DNA of 64,000 bases, taken from assembly GCA_008690995.1 (NCBI GenBank), contig VRMN01000004.1:496001-560000 (forward strand), read 5' to 3'. The stretch is from Porphyridium purpureum. Taxonomy: Eukaryota; Rhodophyta; Bangiophyceae; Porphyridiales; Porphyridiaceae. The notes beneath the pieces were generated by a model. It had not been told where the DNA came from. It ran no database searches and worked only from the letters and a program-made list of their open reading frames with translations. Position 1 is the stretch's first letter. Each line of letters opens with the position of its first letter. This document shows, one piece after another, positions 19,608 through 42,321 of this stretch. A program made the position numbers and the translations under genes.

Positions 19608-20198
19608 GTCTCCTGTTTTCTCAGCTTCTTCCCAGCGTGTTTTGCGGTTTCATACGAACAAAGAGATGTTCGGGGATGCTATAGACAAGAACGACCACCC
19701 GCGGGTCTCGGCCGGTAACTCCGCGATACTTTCTTGCGCGAATAAGTTGGTAATGAGCGTCCAGCTCGGTTCCCAGTGCACAGCGAGAATCCCAACCCTT
19801 GCTGCGTCCTCCGTCACGCTCCCGCAAGGCAGTATACAACTATCACTCCCGCTGCGGCTCCACAATAAATCAAGTGATTAGTTGTCAATACCGTCAACTT
19901 TTTCGCTGCCTCGCTTTGTACTTCGCAAGGTGGACGTTGGTTTTTTTCGCTACTTCTATGCGACCTGCCCTCGGGCATGCGAAGACGCCCTCGTCTTGCC
20001 GGGTACTCCAGAGGCAGAGCTGGCGTATCTCGTCCAGCCGTTGAGCGCTCGAGGTACTGCGACCATCTTCCGCGAGTGTGACTCCCTTTGATTTGTGGAT
20101 TTCCGACAGAATCACGAGACTGTAAAATGCGCAGGCAGCTCATCGTTTTACAAGAAGCAAAAGAGCAAAAAAGGGGGAAAAAATAAAAAATATTGTAC
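19608..20198. other. Intergenic region, no gene recognised
   Basis: Between the macrodomain gene and the 3' end of the TPR/J gene. Nothing supported. Confidence 0.5.
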
Positions 20199-40474: not shown

Positions 40475-40752
40475 ACAAAATGCTCACGCCAGGCCAGTAC
40501 ACCGCCAAGAAGCGCGAGCGTCTTACCAGTTCCGGTCGGAGCCTCGAGCAGTGCGTGCTGCGCGCCGCTGAGCGCGGCGAGCAGGTTATTGAGCAGCGCG
40601 AGCTGAGGCGGGTATGGCGCATACGGTAGCTTGACGCACACACCGCGCACCATGCGCATATGCTGCTCCTGTGGCGGCGCCGGCGGCAGCTCACAGTCAC
40701 TCGCCTCATCATGCTCCGCTTCATCCGCCGATGCAGCTTCATGCGACGCCAT
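37744..40752 (-). CDS. XPD-superfamily Fe-S DNA helicase, FANCJ/BRIP1-like
   Basis: 1002 residues. Walker A APTGTGKTLALL (71-78 core); a pure Gln run of 12 residues (94-105) follows; ATRTHSQVTQVVHEL (motif Ia); four cysteines in SRSRACINE, NVDESCVDA, KSHCYFS and EHRSCAYF that should hold the 4Fe-4S cluster; VDEAHNVDEVCRDSASF (DEAH); YRGRSSEGIDFRDNQARAVIALGIPY (motif V); EWYEAQAFRALNQAVGRCIRHREDYGAVLFLD (motif VI). The last block and LLxxxLAWRE match FANCJ best; RTEL1 and DDX11 are the alternatives. It unwinds DNA 5'-3' in interstrand-crosslink repair and G-quadruplex processing. Long acidic Ser/Pro-rich insert (about 105-220). Head-to-tail with NOP2, 172 bp from stop to NOP2's ATG. Confidence 0.9.
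40435..40473. repeat. (CTG/CAG)n trinucleotide repeat coding for polyglutamine
   Basis: A CTG run ending in TTG, read on the minus strand as CAG, gives the Gln run of the FANCJ-like helicase directly after the Walker A region. Confidence 0.92.
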
Positions 40753-40884
40753 CTAAGGTCGCCATGCGTTATGCATCACTACCACTGCCGCCATCCGTGC
40801 GTTCAAACAATCCGTGAGCTTTTTTCTACAAATAAGGGATATTATATTATAATTTCTCACTTCAGGAGACAGTTCTCTAATACA

Positions 40885-41016
40885 GGGAGCTTGGTCTAGT
40901 GGTATGATTCGCCGTTCGGGTGAGGGAGTTCCCTGTGGGAAAACCTAATCTGTGTTTCGGCGAGGTCCCGAGTTCGAAGACGAGTCACGTCGTCTGAACC
41001 TTTCTCGGAGTTCCCC
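40885..41016 (+). tRNA. tRNA-Pro(CGG) with two introns, one in the T-loop
   Basis: Acceptor 5' GGGAGCT (40885-40891) pairs with AGTTCCC (41009-41015), one G-U; discriminator C (41016), as in eukaryotic tRNA-Pro. D-arm contains TGGTCTAGTGG, also the A box. Anticodon stem CGCCG (40910-40914) pairs with CGGCG (40958-40962); anticodon CGG at 40917-40919. Intron 1 is 36 nt (40921-40956) at the canonical 37/38 site. The T-stem CCGAG (40968-40972) pairs only with CTCGG at 41004-41008, leaving 24 extra nt (about 40979-41002) inside the T-loop. Removing them gives the standard loop TTCGAAT. The exon TTCG can pair with TGAA (40995-40998) and GACG with CGTC inside the insert, a relaxed bulge-helix-bulge. 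A T5 terminator-like run follows at 41054-41058. Confidence 0.9.
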
Positions 41017-42321
41017 CTTGCGTTGAGAAGAGAACCTTTCTGAGGAAAGAAACTTTTTGGTCCTGGGTACAGCGATAATTTCTCAGCGTGTCTCTGCCCC
41101 GTGTGACTGGGCAAGCTGTATAATACCGCTGAGAGTGCATTGCGGCAATTTTCTGACAAGCGCCCTGCCCTTGGTTTCATAAGCTGCAAAATTTGCGCGT
41201 CGACCACATTTATGCCGCGCTAAACACGCAATGGCCAACCCAGTCCTCTTGTCAAAATAGCACATCGCTTCAGAATTGTTCAACGCCGTCGTATGTTTCT
41301 TTTCCTCGTCACTTTACGCTCGCTCTTCAAGTAAGGGCTACATTGACATCAGCACCTTGATGCGTAGCACCTTGTCGCCCAAAACGAATTCATTTCATGA
41401 CGTCATGCGTCCAGGTATACTTTCAGGTATCCAGCGTTTCCCGACAAAACGTGACCCTGCCTCCGTGCATCCACCGCATGGCATCCATGCGCAGTCTCAT
41501 GATAAAAGGTCGGCATTTCGCCTGCCTCCTGAATCACCGAAGATGAGGGTCTCGCGTAGTTTGTAGCTCATCTGGGTCCTCCACATGCGAGGCCAGTCTG
41601 TCTTCTTCTAAACAGGTCTGGTTGGAGTGCCAAGATCTGCGTAGTTGCCTTGGATCTAAACGGGTTGATTTCAACCCGGACAAAATGCAAGTTCGTGCGT
41701 TCTTGGTGCCTGGTCAATGTGGCGGAGTCCCAAATGCCCGTTCAACCCTTCCTTGCGCCCCACATTGATAGGGTCTCCACGTGTGAATGACGTTTTCTCC
41801 TAATAGACAGCTTTGAGATTCAGCAGCACCCGTCTGACCCAGACAGGCACATACCCACGGGCAAGAAAAAAAGAAAGAAAAACACCACGCAAGCTGCCGA
41901 ACCAGGCAGGCGCCTGGAAGAACAAGAATGGCAATCTCCAGTACAGCAAACCGAGCGCATATGGGATCGCCGTGTCCTCCGCCTTTGCGCAAAAATTTCA
42001 CGGCAAGAGCGCTTCCGCCCTGTTTCGAGATGAGAGCTTGGACATGATTCAAGCCACGTGCACAAAGACCTGTGAGCACATTAATCGGCCAAGATATTGA
42101 AGGCTTTTCATTCCGTGAAATAGTCGAGCATGATAAAAGGGGGAAAAACCGTGCTTCGTTGGAATCTTTCTTGAAGAATCACGACACGTGCAATTTGAGA
42201 ATGACTACGCCGCGGTGGGAGAAACGAAAAAGAGGAGCAAGATCTACCGCAACACGAGCCTACCAACTCATGTGCACAGAACCAAGGCAACCGTCCCCGC
42301 CAAGCCTAGGTCCGGAACACC
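41017..42321. other. Intergenic region, no gene recognised
   Basis: 1.3 kb between the tRNA and the BAR-domain gene. Small open frames only; none recognised. Confidence 0.5.

Follow-up and report, generated by a model that had tools for sequence, protein, structure and literature searches.

Introns away from the canonical 37/38 site of tRNA genes, which the original prediction had noted for archaea and for the red alga Cyanidioschyzon merolae, are described for both in the available text of PMC9602550, PMC3978253 and PMC4090602. T-arm introns, multiple introns and permuted tRNA genes are known in C. merolae (PMC9602550, PMC3978253), and T-arm introns are also known in nucleomorphs and archaea (PMC4090602). 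In C. merolae, tRNA-Ile(UAU) and similar nuclear genes simultaneously carry introns in the D-, anticodon and T-arms (PMC9602550), their A and B boxes are interrupted and a TATA-like promoter lies upstream (PMC9602550, PMC3978253, PMC4090602), and Sen2, Sen34 and Sen54 were found in this alga, Sen15 not (PMC3978253). Non-canonical insertions of 3 to 24 nt, some of them in the D and T arms, occur in tRNA genes of the Guillardia theta nucleomorph (Kawach et al. 2005), where intron excision was confirmed by sequencing RT-PCR products, according to the available text of PMC4090602. The same text places archaeal introns at, among other sites, 29/30 and 59/60, and describes genes such as Pyrobaculum islandicum tRNA-Pro(UGG), which have two or three introns, one of them in the T-loop, with bulge-helix-bulge junctions (PMC4090602).

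Here, we describe a gene of Porphyridium purpureum that appears to be split by two introns, one of them in the T-loop, which is rarely interrupted. It lies in a window of 64 kb, by which we mean the whole stretch of DNA analysed, on contig C11 of a genome searched as 22,164,627 bases in 46 contigs. Judged from its sequence, it is a Cyanidioschyzon-type disrupted tRNA gene, a kind already known and now met in a mesophilic red alga that stands outside the Cyanidiophyceae and is only distantly related to the hot-spring alga C. merolae. It resembles the nucleomorph genes in its short T-arm insertion, but these belong to a reduced endosymbiont nucleus, whereas the P. purpureum genes, whose T-loop inserts measure 10 to 70 nt, sit in the nuclear genome of a free-living alga. 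The likeness to archaea is limited in another way: the T-loop intron of P. islandicum tRNA-Pro(UGG) is at 56/57 (PMC4090602), and the P. purpureum gene is eukaryotic and would depend on a Sen-type enzyme.

To resolve the gene, we wrote a cloverleaf parser that accepts introns at four places, namely the D-loop, 26/27, 37/38 and the T-loop. The best-scoring parse in the 64 kb (score 47.1) was a tRNA-Pro(CGG) gene at 40885-41016, interrupted by a 36-nt intron at 37/38 and by 24 nt inserted into the T-loop, and no second place reached 34 when both strands were parsed in 260-base tiles. None of 1000 dinucleotide shuffles of the gene reached its score, the highest being 28.2. The acceptor stem has 7 pairs (one G-U), the anticodon stem and the T-stem each have 5 of 5, and the discriminator is C. 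The gene is in normal 5'-3' order, not circularly permuted, and is flanked by two open frames, the nearer of which starts at 40752 on the opposite strand. Its features, with the means by which each was placed, are as follows.

40830 to 40884, + strand: AT-rich/TATA-like predicted Pol III promoter (ATATTATATTATAATTTCTCAC, about 40840-40860) and leader (leave-one-out model)
40885 to 40920, + strand: exon 1, positions 1-37 (parser, ARAGORN)
40921 to 40956, + strand: intron 1, 36 nt, at the canonical 37/38 site (ARAGORN after removal of the T-loop insert)
40957 to 40978, + strand: exon 2, positions 38-59, with the anticodon 3' strand, variable loop, T-stem 5' strand and TTCGAA (parser, ARAGORN)
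40979 to 41002, + strand: intron 2, 24 nt, in the T-loop at 59/60 or one base earlier, splitting the B box (parser, shuffles, ARAGORN, 7 other genes)
40996 to 40998, + strand: GAA within intron 2, complementary to T54-T55-C56 and 5 nt from C61
41003 to 41016, + strand: exon 3, with position 60, T-stem 3' strand, acceptor 3' strand and discriminator C (parser, ARAGORN)
41054 to 41058, + strand: TTTTT, probable Pol III terminator (sequence inspection)

A normal cloverleaf appears only when the T-loop segment is taken out, both with ARAGORN and with the parser. ARAGORN reported no gene for the unspliced form, tRNA-Pro(cgg) with a 36-nt intron after removal of the T-loop insert, and tRNA-Pro(cgg) after removal of both inserts; ARAGORN and Rfam found zero tRNA in the raw 64-kb window. 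The T-loop junction is ambiguous by one base (TTCGAA|T or TTCGA|TT) and, as either choice leaves a 7-nt T-loop and a 24-nt intron, 59/60 and 58/59 are equivalent at the level of sequence. This anatomy is the one that the original prediction had drawn: the parser and ARAGORN bear out the isotype and the site and size of an insert at about 40979-41002, ARAGORN agrees on the 36 nt at 37/38 once that insert is gone, the parser recovers the paired acceptor, anticodon and T stems and the discriminator C, and the coordinates of exons and introns place the second insert within the B box.

We compared this gene with the other tRNA genes of the genome, as the original prediction had proposed for tRNA-Pro. 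An insert at one T-loop site was found in 8 of the 29 resolved tRNA genes, on several contigs: Pro(CGG) (24 nt), Pro(TGG) (16 nt), Met(CAT) (16 nt), Arg(TCG) (10 nt), Glu(CTC) (13 nt), Leu(TAG) (70 nt), Tyr(GTA) (11 nt) and Trp(CCA) (32 nt). All eight, ranging from 10 to 70 nt, fit site 59/60. The other proline gene, Pro(TGG), thus has an insert at the very same site; it has the acceptor and D arm in common with Pro(CGG) and carries three introns, one on the D side, one at 37/38 and the 16 nt in the T-loop, the sequence of which is unlike that of the Pro(CGG) insert. Comparison with Pro(CGG) places its D-side intron at 21/22, and the parser favours 26/27. The spliced product of each of the eight genes was recognised by ARAGORN as the expected isotype (that of Trp after rearrangement as well), and none of the seven non-permuted genes was called unspliced. 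When the T-loop insert alone was removed, Glu, like Pro(CGG), was called correctly and Pro(TGG) was miscalled as Ile(gat), while Leu(TAG) and Tyr(GTA) remained uncalled because a D-side intron was still present. We conclude from sequence comparison that tRNA-Pro(CGG) belongs to this T-loop series, though it is not its best example.

In six of the eight inserts, a GAA lies exactly 3 nt before C61. Such spacing was attained by four of the eight in seven of 200,000 trials with shuffled inserts, and never by more; it should be noted that the genes had been found via stems or promoter, not via the GAA motif. The two exceptions are Pro(CGG), in which the GAA leaves a bulge of 5 nt, and Glu(CTC), in which GAA is absent; Lys(TTT) was left out of the counts, and its inclusion would make the spacing 6 of 9 T-loop genes. 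As GAA can pair with T54-T55-C56, the 3' splice site would fall in a 3-nt bulge, in a bulge-helix-bulge geometry. Folds of the single arm contain the TTC/GAA pairing in Met, Arg, Leu and Tyr and part of it in Pro(TGG), and lack it in Pro(CGG), Glu and Trp. The fit of eight T-loop inserts to 59/60, with a common GAA spacing in six, is a point of difference from C. merolae.

The original prediction had also proposed that the second intron of Pro(CGG) can form a relaxed bulge-helix-bulge. In the minimum-energy fold, TTC and GAA stay unpaired, although the T-stem and the AGACGA/TCGTCT hairpin are both formed. In the centroid, GTTC pairs with GAAC only by opening the T-stem, so that neither structure combines the TTC/GAA bulge-helix-bulge with the T-stem. 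The 3' bulge measures 5 nt (CCTTT), against 3 nt in six other T-loop genes. Moreover, the stability of the precursor is ordinary (z -1.44; 17 of 200 shuffles at least as stable). The modelled bulge-helix-bulge of this gene is thus weak and would rank among the poorest in the T-loop set, below that of six of its seven sister genes.

The interrupted B box is accompanied by an upstream TATA-like element and a T run, both predicted from sequence, and the interior of the gene contains no run of four or more T. Using a promoter model built from 14 other tRNA loci, with Pro(CGG) left out, we obtained the best match in the window at 40830-40907 on the + strand (15.5 bits, E 6.9e-4). This score is modest, since AT-rich places picked by a similar pattern and without an assigned RNA gene give 12.7 to 18.8 bits. 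The runner-up in the window, at 20163-20193 on the - strand (11.9 bits, E 0.0098), lies where the parser finds no tRNA. Among the 14 resolved tRNA loci outside the model, 12 had a match at E up to 1, with 10.3 to 28.5 bits, and the other two, L079 and L162, had none. The element precedes most of the disrupted tRNA genes found here. The 20 promoter places examined comprise 10 tRNA genes, 4 5S genes and 6 places without assignment.

The same upstream TATA-like element is carried by four 5S rRNA genes (L151, L155, L159 and L164), and two further loci, L171 and L172, look 5S rRNA-like by eye. At L152 (C45:401100-401441), a strong promoter match (25.5 bits) lies ahead of a stretch that resembles a transcript and contains GCCGGGTTCGA...CCCGG, to which no RNA family was assigned. 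An element common to tRNA and 5S genes suggests a Pol III promoter type shared by both in this alga, so that splitting of the B box would probably not impede transcription. As regards TFIIIC, the genome gave a weak match to TFIIIC Tau95 (27.5 bits, cut-off 23.7) and none to the B-block_TFIIIC model. Tau95 presumably corresponds to TFC1. This weak match is a difference from C. merolae, in which TFC1 is reported missing.

We then considered the 29 resolved tRNA genes as a set. Seven are uninterrupted (Lys CTT, Phe, Arg ACG, Gln, Ala CGC, Leu CAA and Ile AAT), two have a 37/38 intron only (Arg TCT and Ser CGA), and 15 carry one or more introns at other sites (Pro CGG, Pro TGG, Gly CCC, Gly GCC, Ala TGC, Met, Arg TCG, Val TAC, Val AAC at 29/30, Ser TGA, Ser GCT, Glu, Leu TAG, Leu TAA and Tyr). 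ARAGORN assigned the expected isotype to the spliced form of every one of these 15 and 2 intron-bearing genes. The readings of Glu, Val(AAC), Trp and Ser(AGA) were first made by eye and afterwards checked with ARAGORN. For Gly(CCC) and Ala(TGC), the intron reading has a competitor, because the unspliced forms are also called, as SeC and as an undetermined tRNA, respectively. The exact borders of the D-side introns are uncertain. In tRNA-Val(AAC), L165 (C43:432846, - strand), an apparent 53-nt intron interrupts the anticodon stem at 29/30, and ARAGORN calls the gene after its removal.

The resolved genes are an incomplete sample, drawn by Rfam model, B-box pattern and promoter pattern, so that these fractions are not free of bias. 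The Rfam tRNA model passed at least 12 places in 22 Mb, with 63 of 475 candidates scored; it did not pass any of the 20 promoter loci, 10 of which are tRNA genes. The B-box pattern gave no excess over its reversed control (134 and 145 matches); 97 loci were taken from the 100 matches listed, the remaining 3 overlapping known loci. The promoter pattern gave 124 matches against 47 for the reversed pattern. When only places found by it are counted, 14 of 19 resolved tRNA genes have a non-37/38 intron or a permutation, among about 45 places inspected of the 100 matches listed. Parsing of 12 further regions (one Pro-like, 11 promoter-like) yielded zero tRNA.

Four entries, L040, L045/L053, L044 and L152, were left out of all counts. 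At L040 (C2:2091229, - strand), Lys(TTT), the T-arm is followed by TGGCAAAACTTTTTGCC; its acceptor pairs at 5 of 7 positions, it has an internal T5 run and lacks GAA, and its spliced form is called tRNA-Lys(ttt) by ARAGORN; it may be a pseudogene, or else a disrupted gene of a more complex kind. L045/L053 has a good promoter and T-arm but several competing parses with introns longer than 50 nt, and L044 gave no parse.

Five further genes of the resolved set are apparently circularly permuted, the 3' half preceding the 5' half, as known from C. merolae, prasinophyte green algae, the Bigelowiella nucleomorph and Thermofilum.

C14, about 661270-661400, + strand: Thr(TGT), L043, 3' half before 5' half
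C11:964865, + strand: Cys(GCA), L147, 3' half before 5' half, with a 4-nt spacer
C11:1462397, + strand: Leu(AAG), L156, 3' half before 5' half
C22:162138, - strand: Trp(CCA), L160, 3' half before 5' half, with a T-loop intron in addition
C1:1873341, + strand: Ser(AGA), L162, 3' half before 5' half, with a D-loop insert in addition

The junctions of all five are at 37/38, the commonest junction in green algae, whereas those of C. merolae vary, according to the available text of PMC3978253. With the halves joined, ARAGORN recognised the expected isotype directly for Thr, Cys and Leu, and for Trp after removal of the T-loop intron. Rejoined Ser(AGA) gave the expected isotype only with the D-loop also shortened, for which several shortenings work, and was called Pro(agg) otherwise. 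A parser for permuted genes scored Thr at 51.5, Leu at 49.0 and Cys at 48.5, and gave no score of at least 38 across 666,550 strand-bases of further, partly overlapping sequence; Trp and Ser, which bear additional introns, were missed by it. The flanks of each junction pair when folded together. In 1000 flank shuffles, folding energies as low or lower were obtained 24 times for Thr, 120 for Leu, 171 for Trp, 296 for Ser and 598 for Cys. Only in Thr does the junction pairing clearly beat the shuffles, and the permuted order therefore rests on the halves rather than on junction structure.

Two PF01974 genes lie on the contig of the window, one matching PDB chains named Sen2 and the other PDB chains named Sen34, and the Tyr, His and Lys of these chains are aligned in both P. 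purpureum proteins. We take the matched chains to be human and the aligned residues to be the catalytic ones of Sen2/Sen34. A Sen54 homologue and two RtcB genes are present in the genome, while the Sen15 model had no match there even at E 10, which is weak evidence of absence. The original prediction had proposed that the tRNA-splicing endonuclease of this alga accepts non-canonical sites. This proposal is strengthened by the seven other genes with the same T-loop site, and further by the D-side and 29/30 introns and the five apparently permuted genes.

Overall, we consider it very probable that 40885-41016 holds a functional nuclear tRNA-Pro(CGG) gene, driven by its promoter, and that the endonuclease excises both introns from its transcript under TTC/GAA pairing. 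We infer the following course of expression, including the enzymes and the order of the steps. RNA polymerase III would transcribe the gene from the upstream TATA-like promoter and stop at the T run at 41054. The T-loop TTC would pair with the GAA of the intron, placing the splice sites in bulges and directing the cuts, and the Sen2/Sen34/Sen54 endonuclease would remove the 37/38 intron and the 24-nt intron between 59 and 60. A ligase, perhaps RtcB, would then join the exons.

Among the alternatives, the one that carries some weight, though we regard it as improbable, is that the locus is a disused pseudogene: a T-loop insertion would have broken this copy of tRNA-Pro, and CCG would be read by another tRNA-Pro (e.g., TGG by wobble). 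The poor bulge-helix-bulge, inferior to that of six of seven sister genes, would fit such a copy, and the available text of PMC4090602 notes that, in eukaryotic tRNA genes, short D- and T-arm insertions mostly affect a single gene among many synonymous ones and are presumed to mark pseudogenes. A decayed copy is, however, difficult to reconcile with intact stems, a spliced product recognised as tRNA-Pro(CGG), a promoter-like element and a T run, and neither the other proline gene found, Pro(TGG), which has the same kind of T-loop insert, nor the occurrence of an insert at this site in eight genes speaks for an isolated accident. The original prediction had named a better, intact tRNA-Pro(CGG) elsewhere as evidence for a pseudogene; none was found by a D-arm pattern or a 5'-end pattern, both of which miss genes disrupted within the pattern. 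The D-arm pattern (up to 3 mismatches) gave 16 places, of which Pro(CGG) (47.1) and Pro(TGG) (39.9) parse well; the next best scores 31.3, and the remaining 13 have no parse at 30. The 5'-end pattern gave 39 places, 36 of them with three mismatches; the three inspected were the two exact matches, which are Pro(CGG) and Pro(TGG), and one with two mismatches (L167), which is not a tRNA. A Pro(AGG) gene was not found by these two patterns either. CCG is the commonest proline codon (216 of 548) in the 15 stop-to-stop frames of at least 400 codons in the window, which are frames and not verified genes.

It is very unlikely that the 24 nt are retained, giving a mature tRNA with an enlarged, hairpin-bearing T-loop. 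In the minimum-energy structure, the insert does form a hairpin of its own, but the same place is interrupted in eight genes by anything from 10 to 70 nt, and the GAA spacing common to six of them makes most sense as a splicing signal. Moreover, because the elongation factor and the ribosome contact the elbow formed by the T-loop and D-loop, 24 additional nucleotides there would be hard to tolerate. An assembly or sequencing artefact has hardly any probability. In its favour, the published assembly is a Nanopore/Illumina hybrid (PMC6811547); random errors, however, would not put inserts of differing length and sequence into the same site of eight genes, spread over several contigs, and leave the exon stems intact. 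On this counter-evidence, we rejected all three alternatives in favour of a working, spliced tRNA-Pro(CGG) gene.

In the literature searched for Porphyridium together with permuted tRNA, permuted tRNA was mentioned only within a reference list, and disrupted nuclear tRNA genes of Porphyridium were absent from the titles and abstract openings searched, a scope mostly outside subscription papers; their novelty is accordingly provisional. Our sequence analysis indicates that multi-intron and permuted tRNA genes occur in a mesophilic red alga, where they are easily missed. The tRNAscan-SE 2.0 paper, in its available text, limits eukaryotic tRNA genes to one intron and assigns the search for non-canonical introns to the archaeal mode (PMC8450103).

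We further think it rather likely that the tRNA set of P. purpureum is about as scrambled as that of Cyanidioschyzon, with most genes either bearing introns outside 37/38 (D-side, 29/30, 59/60) or circularly permuted, that its T-loop introns follow a TTC/GAA rule with a 3-nt bulge, and that its Sen enzyme reads the bulge-helix-bulge in the archaeal manner instead of measuring from the tRNA body. If this is true, tRNA scrambling would be of old standing in the red algae instead of being an adaptation to acid hot springs. P. purpureum is reported to be transformable (PMC6110788). The eight T-loop introns, six of them under one pairing rule, offer a series of substrates for enzyme assays, and two questions would become testable in this alga: by what route a eukaryotic Sen enzyme acquired its tolerance of junctions in several parts of the tRNA, and whether tRNA scrambling predated the split of the Cyanidiophyceae from other red algae.
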